Part shown: positions 7,592 to 17,141 of the stretch, piece by piece
Layout of the letters: each line of letters starts with the position of its first letter
Position numbering within the stretch: the first letter of the stretch is position 1
Origin: Myxococcota bacterium
Lineage (GTDB): Bacteria > Myxococcota > B64-G9
Length of the DNA stretch: 64,000 nucleotides
Assembly: GCA_022710975.1 (NCBI GenBank)
Contig: JAKLGA010000006.1
Location: 310,001 to 374,000, forward strand
Direction of reading: 5' to 3'
Made by a program: the position numbers and the translations under genes
Notes under the pieces: model-generated
The model's input: only the letters and a program-made list of their open reading frames with translations
Databases searched by the model: none
What the model was told of the DNA's origin: nothing

Positions 7592-8863
7592 TCAGTCGTC
7601 AGGCAGGATCCACTCGGGCTCGACTTCCTGGATGGACAGCTCTTCCTGGACTTCCTTCAGCCGCTCGTCCGTGGTGCGCAGGCGCATGGTCAGGATCTGC
7701 AGGAAGCTCCACAGCAGCTTGATGCCCGCGGCGGTGTCCTTGCGGATGTAGTTGTAGAACTGCTTGCGGCCGATGACCAGGACCTTGCACACGCCCACGG
7801 CCCGGATGGCCGCGGAGCGGGGGGCGTTGTCGAACAGCGCCATCTCGCCGAAGTGGCTGCCCTGGGGCAGCCGGGCGATCTCCTGCTGCCCCTTGAGCAC
7901 CAGGGCCTCGCCCATCACCAGCAGGAACAGCTCGTCGCCCGGTACGCCCTCCTCGATGATCGTGTCCCCGTCGGCGTAGGAGCGGGTGTAGGTCAGGTTC
8001 ATCAGGTTGACCAGCTCGCGGTAGCTCAGGTACTTGAAGAGCGGCGCGTTGCGCATGGTGTCCATGCGCAGGCGCAGCTCCTCCGCGGCGCCCTTCTCGT
8101 CGTCCGGGATGTCGATGTACAGGGCGGTGATGTTGTCCTTGCCGCCCCGCTCGTTGGCGAGCGCGATCAGCCGGTCCGGGAACTCGGCCGGCGGGCCCTC
8201 GGCCAGCAGCTTCTCGAGATCGCCGGGCCGGAGGTATCCGTGCAGGCCGTCGCTGCACAGGATGAAGCGGTCCGAGGGCAGGACGTCCAGGTGCATGGTG
8301 TCCACGCGCACCTGCTCCTGGATGCCCACCGCGCGCGTGATGACGTTCTTGTACCGGGCCTTGCGGGCCTCGTCCTGGCTGAGCACGCCGCGCTTGACCT
8401 GCTCGTTGATCAGGGTGTGGTCCACGGTGAGCTGGTGGACCTCGTTCTCACGCAGCAGGTAGATGCGGCTGTCGCCGACGTGGCCGATGAAGGCCCCGTT
8501 GCCCTCGATGACCATCATCGACAGCGTGCTGCCCATGCCGCGCTTCTGGGCCTCGGCCTGCCCCATCTTGTAGACCGTCGCGCAGGCCTTCTGGACGGAG
8601 TCCTCGAGCAGCTGCAGGACGCGGTTGCGGGCCGTGCCCGGGGCGTCGCCCTGGGTCGCGGCCAGCAAGGGGCGGTTGGCGGCCAGCTCGCGCCGGATGA
8701 CGTCGATGGTCGTGGCCGAGGCCACCTCACCCGCCGCGTGCCCCCCCATGCCGTCGGCCACGATGTAGAGCTGCAGGGCTTCGTCGAGCAGGAAGGCATC
8801 CTCGTTGTGGTCGCGCTTCCGGCCGACGTCGGTCTTGCCGTACGCCCGGGGCTTCAACTCCAC
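7592..8863 (-). CDS. PP2C protein phosphatase fused to cyclic-nucleotide-binding domain
   Basis: 423 residues. Residues 1-250 are a PP2C-type Ser/Thr phosphatase: RDHNED (about 17-22), VADGMGGHAAGE (35-46), GHVGDSRIYLL, LCSDGLHGYL and GGKDNITALYI carry the metal-binding Asp residues. Residues about 280-400 are a cNMP-binding beta barrel; its phosphate cassette FGEMALFDNAPRSAA keeps the Glu and Arg that hold cAMP or cGMP. This predicts a soluble phosphatase, opposing Ser/Thr kinases, gated by a cyclic nucleotide. GTG start with AGGAGG four bases upstream. Its own promoter lies at 8897-8925. Convergent with the PilZ gene. Confidence 0.92.
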   Translation of the reverse strand: MELKPRAYGKTDVGRKRDHNEDAFLLDEALQLYIVADGMGGHAAGEVASATTIDVIRRELAANRPLLAATQGDAPGTARNRVLQLLEDSVQKACATVYKMGQAEAQKRGMGSTLSMMVIEGNGAFIGHVGDSRIYLLRENEVHQLTVDHTLINEQVKRGVLSQDEARKARYKNVITRAVGIQEQVRVDTMHLDVLPSDRFILCSDGLHGYLRPGDLEKLLAEGPPAEFPDRLIALANERGGKDNITALYIDIPDDEKGAAEELRLRMDTMRNAPLFKYLSYRELVNLMNLTYTRSYADGDTIIEEGVPGDELFLLVMGEALVLKGQQEIARLPQGSHFGEMALFDNAPRSAAIRAVGVCKVLVIGRKQFYNYIRKDTAAGIKLLWSFLQILTMRLRTTDERLKEVQEELSIQEVEPEWILPDD

Positions 8864-8965: not shown

Positions 8966-9958
8966 CTAGGACTCCTCGCCGAACAGATCGAGCTGGTGCC
9001 GCGGGGGGCCGGCCGGGCCGTTGGCAGCCTGGGCGCCGACGAGCGCGGGGGCCTCGGGGGGCGCGAGGTGGCAGGTCTCGCCCAGGCCGGGGTTCTGGCA
9101 CGAGCACACGCGCACCTCCACGCCTGCCCGCTTGGCCAGGGCCCGCAGGCGCTGGTAACCATCCCTGCGGGTGCGCTCGGGGAGCCAGCGCTGGTCGTGG
9201 TGCAGCCCCAGGCGTTTCCAGGGCTGTCCGCGGAAGCTGCCCTTGATCAGGTGCTGGTGGGCCGAGGGCAGGTTCGCCTCGAGGCGCTCGAGGATGCGCG
9301 GCTCGAGCACCAGGTAGGCCGCGGCGGCGCGCTCCGCGCCCGCCGAGCGGATGTGGCGCAGCAGCTCCTCCAGGTGGCCGACCGTGTCCGAGACGAAGGG
9401 GATCAGCGGCTCGATGCGGGCCTGGACCTGGACCCCCCAGGCGCTCAGGCGCCGGATGGTTTCCAGCCGATCGCGGGGGCTGGGCGCACCAGGCTCGTAC
9501 AGCGCGAGCAGCTCGCGCTCCAGCGAGAAGAGCACCACCTCCGCGTGGATCCTGGGGGCGTGGGCGCGGAACAGCTCGCCGAAGCCCTCGGGCACGACTC
9601 CGCGGGTGCGCAGGACCAGGTGACACCCGGCCTCGAGCAGCAGGCGCGCGACCTCGTGCGTCAGGGTGAGCAGGGCAGGCAGGGGCTGGAAGGAGTCGGT
9701 GGTCAGGTTGAGCAGCACCTCGCGGGGCAGGTTGCCGGTGCGCTGGCGGATGCGCAGCTCCCGCTCGAGCTGCTCGGGCAGCTCGGTGTACAGCTCGGGC
9801 GCCGTCTGGCCGCCCTGGCGGGATCGGAGCGGGCACCACAGGCAGCCGAACTGGCAGCCGTAGGCGACGTTGACGACGTGCGCGTTCGGCGCGCACGGCC
9901 TCCGGGAGCGAGAGATCGGGGAGGCCGGCGGGCCGGGGCTCGGCGGCGACTCGGGCAT
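8966..9958 (-). CDS. Radical SAM protein (spore photoproduct lyase-like family)
   Basis: About 330 residues. The [4Fe-4S]-binding Cys triad is in YGCQFGCLWCPLR (CxxxCxxC) near residue 45, preceded by HVVNVAYGC as in the SplB-like/Rv2578c group of radical SAM proteins. The barrel continues through NLTTDSFQPLP and VVLFSLE. A further Cys pair sits near the C terminus (VCSCQNPGLGETC). It would cleave SAM to a 5'-deoxyadenosyl radical; substrate unknown. Start: ATG at 9956-9958 is used here; an in-frame GTG at 9983-9985 falls at the predicted transcription start and could be a leaderless start. The promoter has an operator-like palindrome. Confidence 0.82.
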   Translation of the reverse strand: MPESPPSPGPPASPISRSRRPCAPNAHVVNVAYGCQFGCLWCPLRSRQGGQTAPELYTELPEQLERELRIRQRTGNLPREVLLNLTTDSFQPLPALLTLTHEVARLLLEAGCHLVLRTRGVVPEGFGELFRAHAPRIHAEVVLFSLERELLALYEPGAPSPRDRLETIRRLSAWGVQVQARIEPLIPFVSDTVGHLEELLRHIRSAGAERAAAAYLVLEPRILERLEANLPSAHQHLIKGSFRGQPWKRLGLHHDQRWLPERTRRDGYQRLRALAKRAGVEVRVCSCQNPGLGETCHLAPPEAPALVGAQAANGPAGPPRHQLDLFGEES

Positions 9959-9991
9959 CGGGAGAGGTTCGTCATCCCTGTACACGCTTTC

Positions 9992-10021
9992 AGTATAGTG
10001 TCCGCGCTCCGGACATGTCAA
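9992..10021 (-). promoter_or_regulatory. Promoter with palindromic operator for radical SAM gene
   Basis: Minus strand -35 TTGACA (10016-10021), 18-bp spacer, -10 TATACT (9992-9997): one of the best sigma70 matches in the window. The spacer is filled by the inverted repeat TGTCCG-N5-CGGACA (9999-10004 / 10010-10015), where a repressor would block polymerase. Confidence 0.7.
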
Positions 10022-10190
10022 TCGGCAGGCTCTCCCGGGGGGAGAGTCCCACCCCGGCGGGCACACTTTTTTTTCCTTGCGCGCTCCACCGCCACGGTGC
10101 TAGGAATTCTGCCCGCCGAAGCTCGGTTGGTAACGTCGCAAAGAGGATGGAAGTTCAGCGATAACCCGAAGGACCTGCAAAAGGAGCGAA

Positions 10191-11813
10191 ATGATGCGGA
10201 CGACTCTCGCGATCGCTGGGTTCGGGCTGGTCGCCAGCCTGCTGCTGGTGGCTCCTGGATGCCCAAGGGGTGAGGATGGCGGCAAGGGCCCGGCGACCGG
10301 CGCCGTGGGCCAGGCCATGCAGCAGACCGTGGCGGAGAAGGCCAAGGTCGAGTTCTTCGTGATGTCCCAGTGCCCGTTCGGCGTGCAGGTCGAGCAGGGC
10401 ATCGCCCCGGTCCTCGACAAGATGGGCGGGGACATCGACTTCACCATCGACTTCATCGGCAACGAGGCCAACGGCCAGCTCACCTCGATGCACGGTGAGA
10501 ACGAGGTCAAGGGCGACAAGGTCCAGCTCTGCGCGCTCAAGTACTTCCCGGGCCAGTCGCTCAAGTTCATCAACTGCATGAACAAGAACCCCCGCGGCAT
10601 CCCGGGCAACTGGGAGGGCTGCGCCACCGAGACGGGCCTCGACATGCCCAAGCTGAAGACCTGCTACGAGGGCGCCGAGGGCAACGACCTCCTGAAGGCC
10701 TCCTTCGCCAAGGCCGCCCAGCGGCGCGCCCGCGGCAGCCCCACCATCTACATCGCCAACAAGCCCTACACCGGCCCGCGCAGCGAGCTGGCGTTCACCC
10801 GGGCCATCTGCGAGGCGTTCCCCAAGGACAAGCACGCCATCTGCGCCAGCCTGCCTCCGCCGGTCAAGGTGCCGGTCACCATCGTCACCGACCAGCGCTG
10901 CAACGAGTGCAAGGCCGAGTTCTGGAAGGCCCGGCTGGAGAGCATGTTCCCGGGCGCCGAGTTCACCGTGAAGGAGTACACCACGGACGAGGGCAAGAAG
11001 TTCTACACCGACCTCGGCCTGACCCTGCTCCCGGCCATCCTGTTCGGCAAGGACGTCGAGAAGGCCGAGAACTACGAGCGGGTGAAGAAGTTCCTGGCGC
11101 CCAAGGGCGACTACCTCGAGTTCCGCGCCGGCGCCAAGTTCGATCCGACCAAGGAGATCTGCGACAACAAGGTCGACGACACCGCCAACGGCAAGATCGA
11201 CTGCGACGATCCGGACTGCACCCAGTCCCTGGTGTGCCGCAAGGAGATCGCCAACCGCCTGGACGTGTTCGTGATGTCCCAGTGCCCGTTCGGCGTGAAG
11301 GCGCTCAACGCCGTGGACGAGGTGCTGAAGAACTTCGAGGGCAAGCTCGACTTCAACATCAACTTCATCGGCGGCGTGGCCAACGACGCGCCCACCTCCA
11401 TGCACGGGCCGGCCGAGGTGGACGAGGACATCCGCGAGCTGTGCGCCATCAAGAACTACAAGAAGAACGCCAAGTACATGGACTACATCCTCTGCCGCAA
11501 CAAGGACATCCGCTCCGCCAACTGGCAGGCTTGCACCGGCGAGAACGGCATCGACGCCAAGGTGATCGAGTCCTGCTTCAACGGCGAAGGCAAGAAGCTG
11601 CTGATGGAGAACTTCAAGGTGGCCGAGGGCCTGGGCATCGGCGCCAGCCCGACCTGGCTGGCCAACAACAAGTTCCAGTTCTCGGGCATCGCCGCCGACC
11701 AGATCAAGACCCAGGTCTGCAAGTACAACAAGGACCTCAAGAACTGCGACAAGAAACTGAGCGGCCCCGAGGCGGGCGGCCCCGCCCCGGCCGGCGCCTG
11801 CGGCGCCAAGTGA
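10191..11813 (+). CDS. Lipoprotein with three thioredoxin-fold-like modules
   Basis: 540 residues. A lipoprotein signal ends at LLLVAPGC (Cys about 24). Modules 1 (about 50-220) and 3 (about 355-520) are paralogous: both have FVMSQCPFGV, then SMHGxxEV, an LCA-K-Y segment and SPT/ANNK, resembling GILT/DsbA-type thioredoxin folds, but the active motif is CPFG with one Cys rather than CxxC. The middle module (about 225-330) has TDQRCNEC, a normal CxxC. A Ca-binding-like linker, CDNKVDDTANGKIDCDDPDC, separates modules 2 and 3 and is typical of myxobacterial surface proteins. Start ATG with AAGGAG upstream. Role: probable envelope thiol-disulfide or thiol-binding protein; exact chemistry unknown. 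Confidence 0.8.
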   Translation: MMRTTLAIAGFGLVASLLLVAPGCPRGEDGGKGPATGAVGQAMQQTVAEKAKVEFFVMSQCPFGVQVEQGIAPVLDKMGGDIDFTIDFIGNEANGQLTSMHGENEVKGDKVQLCALKYFPGQSLKFINCMNKNPRGIPGNWEGCATETGLDMPKLKTCYEGAEGNDLLKASFAKAAQRRARGSPTIYIANKPYTGPRSELAFTRAICEAFPKDKHAICASLPPPVKVPVTIVTDQRCNECKAEFWKARLESMFPGAEFTVKEYTTDEGKKFYTDLGLTLLPAILFGKDVEKAENYERVKKFLAPKGDYLEFRAGAKFDPTKEICDNKVDDTANGKIDCDDPDCTQSLVCRKEIANRLDVFVMSQCPFGVKALNAVDEVLKNFEGKLDFNINFIGGVANDAPTSMHGPAEVDEDIRELCAIKNYKKNAKYMDYILCRNKDIRSANWQACTGENGIDAKVIESCFNGEGKKLLMENFKVAEGLGIGASPTWLANNKFQFSGIAADQIKTQVCKYNKDLKNCDKKLSGPEAGGPAPAGACGAK

Positions 11814-11847
11814 CGGCCTAGCTCGACAGTCCGGACCGAGCAACCTG

Positions 11848-11879
11848 CCCTCCCCTGGGACACCCGGGGGAGGGTTTTT
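11848..11879 (+). terminator. Rho-independent terminator
   Basis: Stem CCCTCCCC (11848-11855) / GGGGAGGG (11867-11874), extended inward by GGG/CCC pairing, followed by TTTTT at 11875-11879. It ends the thioredoxin-like lipoprotein transcript 35 bp after its stop. Confidence 0.85.
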
Positions 11880-11924
11880 CTTTGGGGGTGAGGGCGGGGG
11901 GAGAGGCGCGGGCGGCGGGGAGGG

Positions 11925-12935: not shown

Positions 12936-13529
12936 TCACGGTCTGACGAGGGCCACGGTCACGTCGGCCACCTGGTTGACCGTCAGCCAGGTGCCGGCGC
13001 TGCAACCCACCGCGGTGCGCGTCCCGCCGCCCTGCAGCTGGGCGAAACCTTCCGCGGCCACGATCAGGTCGGGACCGGGGTGGAGCAGCTGGACCAGGTT
13101 GTCCGGGAAGAAGGTGGCGCCGGAGGTCCAGTTGAACACCAGGTACTTCGGGCTGGCGTGCATGGGGTTCAAGCGCGGATCGTCCAGCGCCAGCGCACCC
13201 GCCAGGATGTCCTCGCACAGGACCGGGGCGCCGTCGGACAGGTCCCCCCACAGCACGTGCACGTATCCGGAGGCGGCGGCCTGGTACATGTCCCGCCCGA
13301 AGCTGAGGTCCACGCTGGCGCTGGCCAGGCTCGCGCCGGGGTCGAAGAACACGCAGTGGAGCTCGATGCACATGGCCTCGCCGCTCGCGCCGCAGTCGCG
13401 GGCGTGCTGGCACGGCGGGCCGAGCTCCTCCGCCGGTCCGCAGGCCTGCGCGCAGAGCGCCAGGGCCAGCGCGGCCAGCGCGATCCCGGAGAGGAACCCT
13501 CGCGTGTCCATCGCAGTGGTGATTAGCAC
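12936..13529 (-). CDS. Small Cys-containing lipoprotein, function unknown
   Basis: About 197 residues. The N terminus is hydrophobic and ends LALCAQACGP, a lipobox-like site. Just after it comes a Cys module (CQHARDC...MCIELHC) like those in the large lipoprotein at 54310, then a domain without a recognised family containing one further Cys near residue 100 and one near the end. Start: GTG at 13527-13529 is preceded by AGGGAGGG; an ATG six codons later (13509-13511) has no nearby ribosome site. Divergent from the deoxynucleoside kinase. Confidence 0.7.
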   Translation of the reverse strand: MLITTAMDTRGFLSGIALAALALALCAQACGPAEELGPPCQHARDCGASGEAMCIELHCVFFDPGASLASASVDLSFGRDMYQAAASGYVHVLWGDLSDGAPVLCEDILAGALALDDPRLNPMHASPKYLVFNWTSGATFFPDNLVQLLHPGPDLIVAAEGFAQLQGGGTRTAVGCSAGTWLTVNQVADVTVALVRP

Positions 13530-13590
13530 GATCCCTCCCTGGAGACAATCTGCGCGGGCCGCGGAGGTCGCGAGCCCACCCACAAAAGGA

Positions 13591-13619
13591 TTGATCAGCG
13601 CGGGGGTGCGGCCGATACT
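13591..13619 (+). promoter_or_regulatory. Possible promoter of deoxynucleoside kinase gene
   Basis: -35 TTGATC (13591-13596), 17-bp spacer, -10 GATACT (13614-13619), 21 bp before the GTG start. Confidence 0.45.
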
Positions 13620-13640
13620 CGAGGCCCCAGGGGAGGCAAG

Positions 13641-14249
13641 GTGAAGCGCTACATCGCGGTGGCCGGGAACATCGGTGCCGGGAAGACCTCGCTGGTGGAG
13701 TTCCTGGTCAAGCGCTACAAGCTCAAGCCCTTCTTCGAGCCCAACGACACCAACCCCTACCTGGCCGACTTCTACCAGGACATGGGCCGGTGGGCGTTCC
13801 ACTCCCAGATCTACTTCATGACCCACAAGTTCAGGCTCCATCGCGAGCTCGAGCGCTTTCCGGGCACCGTCATCCAGGATCGGACGATCTACGAGGACGC
13901 CGAGATCTTCGCCCGCAACCTCTTCAACGGTCGCTTCATCTCCAGGCGCGACTACAAGACCTACCGGGAGCTCTACGAGACCATCCAGCGCGACCTGACC
14001 CCTCCGGACGTGATGATCTTCCTGCGCTGCTCGGTGCGCAGCGTCCGGCAGCGGATCCGACAGCGCGGCCGGGCCATGGAGCAGAGCATCCCGGTCGCCT
14101 ACCTGCAGAAGCTCGACCGGCTCTACGAGGACTGGTACAAGCGCTGGGATCTCTCGCCCCGGATTGAGATCCGCTCCGACAAGCTCGACTACATCACCGA
14201 CATCGTGCACCAGCTCGACTTGCTCAAAGAGATCGAGAAGTACCTGTAA
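13641..14249 (+). CDS. Deoxynucleoside kinase (dNK/dGK-dAK family)
   Basis: 202 residues, the normal length for bacterial deoxyadenosine/deoxyguanosine kinases. Walker A is VAGNIGAGKTSL (about 7-18); FFEPNDTNPYLADFYQD carries the substrate-binding Glu; QDRTIYED is the family DRS/DRT motif; RIRQRGRAMEQ is the lid with phosphate-binding Arg residues. It phosphorylates deoxynucleosides for salvage of dNTP precursors, using ATP. GTG start with GGGGAGG upstream. Stands alone between divergent and small genes. Confidence 0.92.
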   Translation: MKRYIAVAGNIGAGKTSLVEFLVKRYKLKPFFEPNDTNPYLADFYQDMGRWAFHSQIYFMTHKFRLHRELERFPGTVIQDRTIYEDAEIFARNLFNGRFISRRDYKTYRELYETIQRDLTPPDVMIFLRCSVRSVRQRIRQRGRAMEQSIPVAYLQKLDRLYEDWYKRWDLSPRIEIRSDKLDYITDIVHQLDLLKEIEKYL

Positions 14250-14540: not shown

Positions 14541-17141
14541 CTACTGGAACGTCCCGCTCGGCCAGCTCAGGAACCCGATCTGCCGCTCTGTCGAACCCTC
14601 TTCGTGCGGGAAGCTGAAGCCGCGGGTGATGGTGCGCTTGCTCCCGTCCCACTCGGTGATCTCCACCACCACCTCGCCGTAGGCTTGTCGCTGGCACATG
14701 TCCGTCCCCGAGATCGTGCACCACAGGCACATGAAGTTGCACATGCCTCCGCAGATGTCATCGCAGCACCAGTAGTCGCCGCCCAGCGAGGTCGACGAGT
14801 GGCAGCGGAAGTACACGAAGATGCCGAAGCTCCCCAGCCCTGGATCGGGGAAGTTGATCTCGTCCGCGGCGTTGCCGGGATCCAGCGCGTTGTCACCGTC
14901 CTCCCAGCTGTCGCGCTGGTAGACGGGAGCGCCGTGGAAACCCCAGTCGGGGGTCGGGTTGCCCGCCTCCTCGCCCTCCTTGCCGGGGTGGCAGTCGTCG
15001 CTGGTGAAGCTGTCGGCCTCCCAGCTCGCGCCGGGGCGCAGCAGGTGCAGGTCGACGTCGACCCGGTTGTCCCCCAGGCCCCGATCGATCCAGTTGGCAG
15101 CGATGCGGAAGGACTGCGGGCCGCGCACCCGGACCGTGAAGGTGGCCTCGGTGGACTCGTTGACCGGGCTGTCGTTGTCACGCACCACCAGGCCGATCAC
15201 GTAGTCCCCGGGAAAGTCGAAGGTCACGTTGGCGAACAGCGCGGGGGTGCCTCCGGCCACGATGCCCGGCGCGCTCCCCCGCCCCGCCGGGTAGCTCACG
15301 ACGCGCCACAGGTACTCCTGCACGAACCCGTCGCAGTCCGTGGAGTAGCTGCCGTCGAAGGACACCAGGTCGCCCAGGTCCACCTCGATGAACCCGGTGG
15401 TGTTCCCGCCCACACGCAGATCGGCCTGCGGCCCGGAGTAGACCTGGAGGTCGAGGCTGTCGTCGTCGCTCCAGGCGCCCTGGTCGTCGCGGACGCGCAG
15501 GCCGACGGTCGTGAGCCCCGCCTCACGCACGATCAGCGCCGTGGTCGGGTTGGCCGTGCCGGGCAGCGTGGACGGCTGGCCGCAGGGGTTCGCGTTGGGC
15601 TGCTGGATGATGCGCCACTCGTAGCCGGCCAGCGCGCCGTCGTTGTCGAACGAGCCGCTGCCGTCCAGGCCGACCTGGCTGTTGAGGGCCACCCGCAGCA
15701 GGGCCGTGTCCACGCCGTTGGCCAGGATGACCGCCGTGGGGCGGGCGTTGCCCTGGACCCCCGAGCCGCCCACGTCCAGGCGGACGTCCGGGGCGTGCTC
15801 GGGGTCGTCGTGGGTGATCACCAGCTGGGTGGCGTCCCCGCCCACGTCCACCGGCGCATAGCCGACCTCGAAGCTCACCTCCCCGCCCGGCTGCACGGCC
15901 AGCGGTAAGGCCGGCAGGCCCGAGAGGCTGAACTCGGCCGTGTGTCCAGGGAGGAGATCGATCCCGCTCAGGGTGAGCGAGCCTACCCCTGTGTTCCGGA
16001 CGGTGACCGGAACGCCCGGGGCCGTGGTGTTGGCGGACACCTCGCCGAAATCGACGCGCGCCGGGGTCACCTCGATGCTCGGTGCGCCGGCCCGGGCGCG
16101 CACCTGCACGCTGGCCGTGGGGGCGTTCGGGTCCGAGCTCAGCACCACGATCTCACCGTCGTAGGTGCCCCGCGCGGGCGCCAGGAAGGTGACCTGGGCC
16201 TCGAGCACGTCCCCGCGGTTGAGGAAGGCAGGCAGGGACACCGGCTCCAGGCTGACCGCGTCGAGCAGCGTCAGCGTGTAGGCGTTGGCGATGTTCACCT
16301 CGGGCGCCACCTCGTCGAGCTCGAGGACCGCGTTGCCCGTGCCTGTGTTCGACAGCAGGCACTCCAGGGTCGCGGGGCTGCCGACCGCCACGTCGCCGAA
16401 GTCGAGCAGCAGCGGGTCCAGGGAGAGCTGGGCCTCACCCTTGAACTCGCTGATGAGCTGCACGTCGAGCTCGGGCTGGTCCGGATCGTCGCTGTATAGC
16501 TTGGCCACGGCCCGGTCGGTCGAGCCGTCCACGGCGAAGTAGGTCACCACCAGCGCAGACTCACCGCCCGGCGGGATGGTCACCGCCGGCGGCACGCCCG
16601 GGGCCACGTCGAACTCGTCCAGCGGGTCCTGATCGACGCTGACCACGCTCAGGTGGAGATCGGCCTGGCCGCTGTTGCGGACCAGCAGGTTGGCGTCGAC
16701 AGGCTGGCCCACGGTCACGTTGCCGAAGTTGAGCTCGTAGGTGGTCCCCTGGGCGTCCTGGCGGATGATCACGTCGCCGGCCAGGGCGATGTCCGGCTGC
16801 TGCACCTGCTCCTCGCCGCCCGGGTCGTTGCCGTCCGCGGGCCCGTCCTCGCCGTCCAGCCCTCCGTCCACCCGGGTGCCAGGCACGCACAGGCCGCCCT
16901 CGCAGATCTCATCCCCCAGGCATTGCAGATCCGAGGAGCAGGGCCGCTGATCGTCGTCTCCGCCGATGGGCTGGCACACCCCCTGGGCGCAGTACTCGCC
17001 CACACCGCACTCGAAGTCCTGGGTGCAGGGGACGCTGCCATCGTCGGGCAGGCCGCTGCTGTCGGCGCAGCCGGACAGCGCGAGCCACAGGCCCAGGGTC
17101 AGCACCCCGGGGAAGCCGAGAGGTCGGCGGCGCGGTCGCAT
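14541..17141 (-). CDS. Large lipoprotein with choice-of-anchor-D and PKD-type repeats
   Basis: 866 residues. Lipobox LALSGCAD at about 22-27. Residues about 35-90 hold two Cys modules (CTQDFECGVGEYC, CSSDLQCLGDEIC). About 130-455 contain three Ig-like ASH/Hydin-type repeats, each with a DFG-[DE]V start and an N-TG core (LLVRNSGQADLHL, LLSNTGTGNAVLEL, VRNTGVGSLTLSG). About 465-675 hold two PKD-like beta-sandwich domains (VGLDGSGSFDNDG, VSFDGSYSTDCDG). The C-terminal ~190 residues form a separate domain with NRVDVDLHLLRPGA and a dense Cys cluster (YWCCDDICGGMC), perhaps metal-binding or disulfide-linked. Probably outer-membrane surface displayed; function unknown. AGGAGG precedes the ATG. Confidence 0.85.
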   Translation of the reverse strand: MRPRRRPLGFPGVLTLGLWLALSGCADSSGLPDDGSVPCTQDFECGVGEYCAQGVCQPIGGDDDQRPCSSDLQCLGDEICEGGLCVPGTRVDGGLDGEDGPADGNDPGGEEQVQQPDIALAGDVIIRQDAQGTTYELNFGNVTVGQPVDANLLVRNSGQADLHLSVVSVDQDPLDEFDVAPGVPPAVTIPPGGESALVVTYFAVDGSTDRAVAKLYSDDPDQPELDVQLISEFKGEAQLSLDPLLLDFGDVAVGSPATLECLLSNTGTGNAVLELDEVAPEVNIANAYTLTLLDAVSLEPVSLPAFLNRGDVLEAQVTFLAPARGTYDGEIVVLSSDPNAPTASVQVRARAGAPSIEVTPARVDFGEVSANTTAPGVPVTVRNTGVGSLTLSGIDLLPGHTAEFSLSGLPALPLAVQPGGEVSFEVGYAPVDVGGDATQLVITHDDPEHAPDVRLDVGGSGVQGNARPTAVILANGVDTALLRVALNSQVGLDGSGSFDNDGALAGYEWRIIQQPNANPCGQPSTLPGTANPTTALIVREAGLTTVGLRVRDDQGAWSDDDSLDLQVYSGPQADLRVGGNTTGFIEVDLGDLVSFDGSYSTDCDGFVQEYLWRVVSYPAGRGSAPGIVAGGTPALFANVTFDFPGDYVIGLVVRDNDSPVNESTEATFTVRVRGPQSFRIAANWIDRGLGDNRVDVDLHLLRPGASWEADSFTSDDCHPGKEGEEAGNPTPDWGFHGAPVYQRDSWEDGDNALDPGNAADEINFPDPGLGSFGIFVYFRCHSSTSLGGDYWCCDDICGGMCNFMCLWCTISGTDMCQRQAYGEVVVEITEWDGSKRTITRGFSFPHEEGSTERQIGFLSWPSGTFQ

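Follow-up and report, generated by a model that had tools for sequence, protein, structure and literature searches.

The window, that is, the whole stretch of DNA analysed here, comprises 64,000 nucleotides of a Myxococcota bacterium (assembly GCA_022710975.1, contig JAKLGA010000006.1, positions 310,001 to 374,000 of the forward strand). On its plus strand, an open reading frame at 10191-11813 begins with an ATG that is preceded by AAGGAG (read by eye) and runs uninterrupted for 540 codons, giving a product of 540 aa. Conservation is expressed below over an alignment of 81 rows, namely the window protein, 79 loci and one further relative (L131) added by hand. The features of the gene, and of the DNA just behind it, are as follows:

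10191..10262 (+): signal peptide with an atypical lipobox, residues 1-24 (VAPGC24); from the sequence, with a Cys in the same column in 57/81 relatives.
10332..10844 (+): module 1, a GILT domain, residues 48-218, with the lone catalytic Cys C61 in MSQCPFG, the SP184T loop and structural Cys 114, 129, 144, 158, 207 and 218; from Pfam GILT, fold match and conservation.
10371..10373 (+): codon of C61, monothiol site 1; Cys in 80/81.
10848..11147 (+): module 2, a thioredoxin/PDO-like domain, residues 220-319, with CNEC (C237/C240) and the LP281 loop; from a PDB profile search, a model of its own and conservation.
11154..11243 (+): four-Cys acidic linker, residues 322-351, a possible Ca-binding loop; NF033662 below cut-off, four Cys in 81/81.
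11244..11756 (+): module 3, a GILT domain, residues 352-522, with the lone catalytic Cys C365, the SP487T loop and structural Cys 418, 435, 448, 462, 510 and 519; from Pfam GILT and conservation.
11283..11285 (+): codon of C365, monothiol site 2; Cys in 81/81.
11757..11810 (+): Gly/Pro/Ala-rich C-terminal tail, residues 523-540, with C537; aligned in 75/81, low pLDDT.
11847..11881 (+): terminator-like hairpin and T run, read by eye.

Regarding the surroundings, a radical SAM gene (8966-10066, minus strand) lies upstream of and divergent from the triple-module gene. Given this divergent neighbour and the hairpin with a T run behind the stop codon, the triple-module gene is probably transcribed alone. 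The minus strand of the window also carries a PP2C phosphatase fused with a cyclic-nucleotide-binding domain (7592-8863), a smaller Cys-rich lipoprotein-like frame (about 12936-13700) and a large surface protein (14541-17141) whose N-terminus is Cys-rich and which carries ASH/HYDIN and PKD domains.

The N-terminus of the protein is hydrophobic and ends in VAPGC24. The preliminary description of this DNA had called the product a lipoprotein, which agrees with the conserved Cys column and with a simple lipobox in 56 of 79 relatives; the box of the window protein itself, APGC, is nevertheless atypical. Some relatives, inspected by eye, show an N-terminal hydrophobic stretch in place of a lipobox.

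A search with the protein gave matches in 8 of the 9 genomes of the window's class and in 27 of the 195 of its phylum, the latter figure including weak DsbA-like matches, and Pfam GILT matches were found in 21 of these 195. A pattern scan of GTDB confirmed at least 434 relatives, the best 80 of which were retained. These best 80 are mostly from Myxococcota/Deltaproteobacteria; among them are also rumen bacteria (UBP6, 'Spirochaetales'), Sumerlaeota, Oligoflexia, Acidobacteria and Kuenenbacteria bins, as well as archaea (Woesearchaeota, Nanoarchaeia, Altiarchaeales). The seven archaeal rows (DPANN/Altiarchaeal) form a single clade (SH-aLRT 99). The weak matches L048-L053 were left out of the family counts, and the two that we checked, L048 and L050, are DsbA/Thioredoxin_4 relatives. 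One branch (100/98) of a 162-module tree separates all copies of module 1 from those of module 3, therefore their duplication predates the spread seen here.

When the ORFs around the 80 loci were clustered by blastp, no neighbour cluster reached more than 11 loci, most of them from close relatives, and no wider conserved neighbour was found. Single loci have peculiarities of their own. The protein at L029:1501-3663 (the same protein as L084) has a C-terminal fusion to a family-3 solute-binding domain (SBP_bac_3) and lacks the tail Cys, and each of its GILT modules has CPxA. At L059:5653-7497, PQQ/BamB-type propeller repeats stand directly before the triple protein, where the lipobox would be. 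An archaeal copy, L096:4039-5598, has cysteine desulfurase-like and IscU-like genes just upstream and a thioredoxin-reductase-like gene downstream (by eye).

Modules 1 and 3 are 36% identical and share MSQCPFGV, at residues 58-65 and 362-369, with a single Cys in each copy, which bears out the internal duplication proposed earlier. Searched singly against Pfam GILT (PF03227), they scored 48.7 and 36.7 bits respectively, over a cut-off of 22.4, and a PDB profile search with 29 module sequences returned mouse GILT as the top match (E 2.5e-8). Furthermore, the module Cys equivalent to 114, 129, 144, 158, 207 and 218 align with GILT Cys in the profile alignment. The AlphaFold2 model, made from 81 sequences, had a mean pLDDT of 90.7 and a pTM of 0.78. 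The predicted fold of module 1 is closest to mouse GILT 6nwx (Foldseek ranks 1-2), and its VIA-align comparison with 6nwx_A gave Z 21.6 and rmsd 2.3 with 173/189 aligned; the fold families came in the order GILT, DsbA and then VSR1 (Z 17.2). The fold search with the whole model reflects mostly module 1, and module 2 was predicted and searched by itself. The kinship of modules 1 and 3 with GILT, a lysosomal enzyme of animals, is thus well supported.

The CXXC active site of GILT is absent: both modules have CPFG, and the second Cys is missing in 162 of 162 modules. The GILT signature is CQHGX2ECX2NX4C (PMC7017176), and the corresponding stretch, SMHGENEVKGDKVQLC, departs from it, since HG, E and the final Cys are retained and the first two Cys and the N are gone. 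As to DsbA (PF01323), the whole protein scored 30.3 bits, over the cut-off; module 1 alone reached 22.7, under 25.6, and module 3 was unmatched. As neither module has CxxC either, we rejected DsbA membership for the single modules. The earlier statement that this is not a standard disulfide isomerase is supported. UGGT also appeared in the Foldseek list over 519-541 columns, with a TM of only 0.21-0.22 by query length, and we read no more into it than a shared arrangement.

Module 2, which keeps its Cys pair, is probably a small domain of the thioredoxin/PDO-like type. It had no Pfam match of note, and its profile found the archaeal PDO structures 1j08 (E 1.1e-5) and 1a8l (2.2e-5) in the PDB. 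Modelled alone it had a pLDDT of 94.0 and gave middling matches to thioredoxin folds, the best being AhpF (Z 7.1), with 1j08 at Z 5.9. The spacing of its two Cys is CX2C in 66 rows, CX3C in 3 and CX4C in 12. The linker behind it is a cysteine-rich acidic stretch that joins modules 2 and 3, as described before. It resembles the acidic double-disulfide repeat NF033662 weakly (22.8 bits, below the cut-off of 41), and nine of the 81 relatives are without the acidic loop and have all four linker Cys. In the phylum, NF033662 repeats showed no significant association with GILT (19/21 GILT genomes against 129/174 others, p 0.11).

The three thioredoxin-fold modules of the preliminary description are supported. 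Its CNEC motif in module 2 was right and the numbering C238/C241 has to be corrected to C237/C240; each Cys of the pair is conserved in 81/81 rows. That this dithiol could serve as an internal relay is likewise supported.

Conservation of the other Cys is similarly strict. C365 is Cys in every row and C61 in all except L092, where it is Gly. Three residues further on, Cys never occurs: residue 64 is G in 78 rows, T in 2 and A in 1, and residue 368 is G in 76, A in 3 and T in 2. The structural Cys C114-C218 and C418-C462 are present in 81/81 and C510 and C519 in 80/81 (one row is cut), and S183-P184 and S486-P487 are invariant. The motif His of each GILT module is found in 78/81, being missing from both modules of L088 and L100. 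The Cys total from residue 40 onward is exactly 21 in 69/81 rows, which corresponds to 16 Cys able to pair structurally plus C61, C237, C240, C365 and C537. The monothiol pattern, held in all 81 aligned relatives save one Cys-to-Gly change, is far beyond chance. Module 1 reads CPYC in two paralogs, L030 and L032, that are not part of this alignment.

The question whether the CPFG Cys is paired within its module can be approached through a paralog, L082:8518-10062, located downstream of an intact copy. This protein has D for C61, A/L for C237/C240, no C365 and no linker Cys, and it keeps all 12 structural Cys, six in module 1 and six in module 3; judged by its sequence, it is a natural pseudo-enzyme. 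The four catalytic positions were lost together in it, so they behave as a single functional unit. Were C61 paired with any of the six other Cys of its module, the paralog would be expected to hold an odd Cys; all six remain. Since the paralog lost the catalytic Cys and kept all the structural ones, this parity argument, together with homology to GILT, indicates that the CPFG Cys is probably unpaired within its own module. A normal redox pair with another Cys of the module, the arrangement against which the preliminary description was set, thus looks unlikely: the six others are invariant, match those of GILT and are complete in a paralog that lacks the CPFG Cys. In the TRX domain of VSR1, as far as the passages of PMC11052993 on that domain go, disulfides join helices 1-4 and 2-3 and another ties the domain end to the linker. 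Carried over by the helix order of our model, this analogy suggests the pairing 114-158, 129-144 and 207-218 for module 1.

C537 or an equivalent Cys occurs in 75/81 rows, 14-24 residues past C519 in 74 of these 75 and 39 residues past it in L054 (counted to the last Cys). The tail is 56% G/P/A/S across the family, and residues 533-540 have a pLDDT under 50 in the AlphaFold2 model. L054, the nearest relative, has a tail almost entirely of Gly with three Cys. The tail Cys was lost in three independent lineages with CPxA in module 3, one of which (L030, L032) is the one with CPYC in module 1. A CPxT lineage (L088, L100) retains the tail Cys, which is missing from L122 and L132, two rows with CPxG. 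This covariation of the tail Cys with CPxG gave a Fisher p of 0.002 on 81 rows, L126 (cut by a contig end) being counted as tail-less. On 88 rows, with L126 dropped and eight added, three of the four independent changes fit the covariation (sign test p 0.25), therefore the link is suggestive only. The L082 paralog, which has no catalytic Cys left, retains one at its C-terminal end (LDACW), and this counts against a catalytic role of the tail Cys. L031 and L034, which have no module 1, retain module 2, the linker, module 3 and the tail Cys, thus these four parts together look like the core unit.

In both GILT modules the nucleophile and the SPT loop are kept and the resolving Cys is lost, and a separate Cys pair is kept, so a split active site is the most economical interpretation. 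With moderate confidence we propose a membrane-anchored extracytoplasmic thiol-disulfide oxidoreductase (reductase/isomerase) of this kind. C61 or C365 would attack a disulfide of an exported substrate protein, or take a substrate thiol, forming a mixed disulfide that could not close inside its own GILT module. Resolution would then come from the substrate (isomerisation), from the C237/C240 dithiol or from a mobile C537, and module 2 would be recharged by whichever extracytoplasmic reductant the host possesses. The whole chain would perform net reduction or isomerisation, rather than oxidation, as the monothiol state and a descent from GILT lead us to infer. Likely substrates would be cysteine-rich surface lipoproteins, others of which the window appears to encode. 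A more elaborate form, with two monothiol catchers resolved by the CX2-4C domain and a swinging Gly-rich Cys arm, making a self-contained prokaryotic GILT machine with a five-thiol relay, is conceivable and we consider it rather doubtful.

The precedents cut both ways. According to the part of PMC6060088 that treats these mutants, mouse GILT mutated to CxxS retains a reduced activity; natural one-Cys mosGILT is reported there with no detectable thiol-reducing activity, and its C32S mutant has an unchanged effect on sporozoites. The CX2-4C variation of module 2 is unusual for a redox CxxC and counts against the split-site reading, as does the finding that, in the loci compared, only close relatives share neighbouring genes. 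A Woesearchaeal frame, L124:6819-7229, counts for the mechanism: it is WCGHC thioredoxin-like, has an N-terminal hydrophobic stretch and overlaps the end of the triple gene. Among 22 triple-bearing genomes (completeness not given), chosen from the 80 loci to spread lineages, a fixed redox partner was not found: VKOR was present in 7, DsbD_TM in 12 and DsbB in none, and 10 had neither VKOR nor DsbD_TM. In the window's genome, VKOR and DsbD_TM are each matched three times.

The alternative that survives best, which we nevertheless regard as unlikely, is a covalent client-retention or escort factor, in which the monothiol modules would hold free-thiol clients at the membrane in long-lived mixed disulfides and module 2 would release them, for quality control and not catalysis. 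ERp44, AGR2 and Eug1 are parallels for such a role. The loss of the resolving Cys, fixed in both GILT modules, and the membrane anchoring by a lipobox or, by eye, an N-terminal hydrophobic stretch would suit it, and CXXS proteins of the thioredoxin fold are described, in the section of PMC10775533 concerned, as forming stabler covalent complexes. Against retention, a mixed disulfide should be shorter-lived, not longer-lived, in a protein that conserves both a dithiol module and a tail Cys.

Improbable, to a greater degree, is a thiol oxidase partnered with VKOR, in which VKOR would oxidise module 2 and the disulfide would pass to the monothiol modules. VKOR is indeed found in 142 of the 195 genomes of the phylum, in 18 of the 21 that bear GILT, and three times in the window's genome; the association is not significant, however (18/21 GILT genomes against 124/174 others, Fisher p 0.20), VKOR is missing from 15 of the 22 chosen genomes and DsbB from all, and a monothiol site should donate disulfides poorly. 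The window's genome also has L016 (G000:C11:62234-62830), a DsbA-like domain in a frame of 553 aa adjoining a VKOR match; the frame length of that match is the same, so this is probably a VKOR-DsbA fusion.

We give slightly less credence still to a re-use of the GILT fold in a cargo-binding receptor, as has been suggested for the TRX domain of the plant vacuolar sorting receptor, here with a Ca-responsive linker. The place of VSR1 after GILT and DsbA among the fold families of module 1, the coupling of GILT-like and Ca-binding domains in VSR1 as outlined in part of PMC11052993, the L082 paralog without any catalytic Cys and the fusions in L029 and L059 all speak for it; the main family, on the contrary, keeps the catalytic Cys and the SPT loops nearly invariant.

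Least probable of all is the metal- or selenium-binding envelope protein that the preliminary description had entertained: M58, C61 and H101 are conserved near the site and metal sites tolerate a variable CX2-4C spacing, but the His belongs to the GILT HG signature, L088 and L100 lack this His in both modules while retaining the Cys, no metal site is indicated, the SPT loops are nearly invariant and no Sec form was seen, no in-frame TGA replacing a catalytic Cys being found among the relatives matched. The sole TGA flagged (G002:C9) is past the protein end and was rejected as a selenocysteine form.

GILT domains are already known, and so are one-Cys GILTs in insects. A survey of GOS data in 2008 stated, in the part concerning this family, that no prokaryotic GILT homologs were known (PMC2398784), and we found no description of bacterial or archaeal GILT proteins, or of the triple architecture, among the open-licence PMC papers that were searched. 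Both bacteria and DPANN archaea have kept the triple form, some of the hosts having VKOR or DsbD and others not. Two one-Cys GILT domains with a dithiol domain, kept over such an evolutionary distance, make the function of one-Cys GILTs directly testable. The split-site oxidoreductase that we favour may add a disulfide-handling system for lineages (such as rumen bacteria and DPANN archaea) where we found neither VKOR nor DsbB and often no DsbD.

Among the known systems, DsbA/BdbD/ScsC-type proteins share the superfamily fold with module 1 (Z about 14-18); their sequence match is weaker, and they carry CxxC sites. Of the solved structures, archaeal PDO (1j08, 1a8l) comes closest to module 2 in sequence (E 1e-5). 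PDO is cytosolic and has two thioredoxin units, whereas module 2 is a single unit within an exported protein and has CX2-4C. The TRX domain of plant VSR1 (9b1r, 8r4y) is, in the account that parts of PMC11052993 give of it, likewise GILT-like, with helical-bundle disulfides and coupled to a Ca-binding domain. Unlike the triple protein, VSR1 has a CxxxC active site and PA and EGF domains and is a eukaryotic sorting receptor. Insect mosGILT (CXXS) is also a GILT relative that retains the first active-site Cys only; as presented in the relevant part of PMC6060088, it differs in being a mosquito salivary protein with one GILT module, Ser instead of Gly and no dithiol module described there. Finally, with GILT itself (PF03227, mouse 6nwx) the triple protein shares two modules over the profile cut-off, the fold (module 1), six aligned structural Cys and the HG; in contrast to GILT, it has two GILT modules per chain with a thioredoxin-like module between them, has CPxG instead of CxxC and has lost both other Cys of CQHGxxEC, and it is prokaryotic and probably membrane-anchored.
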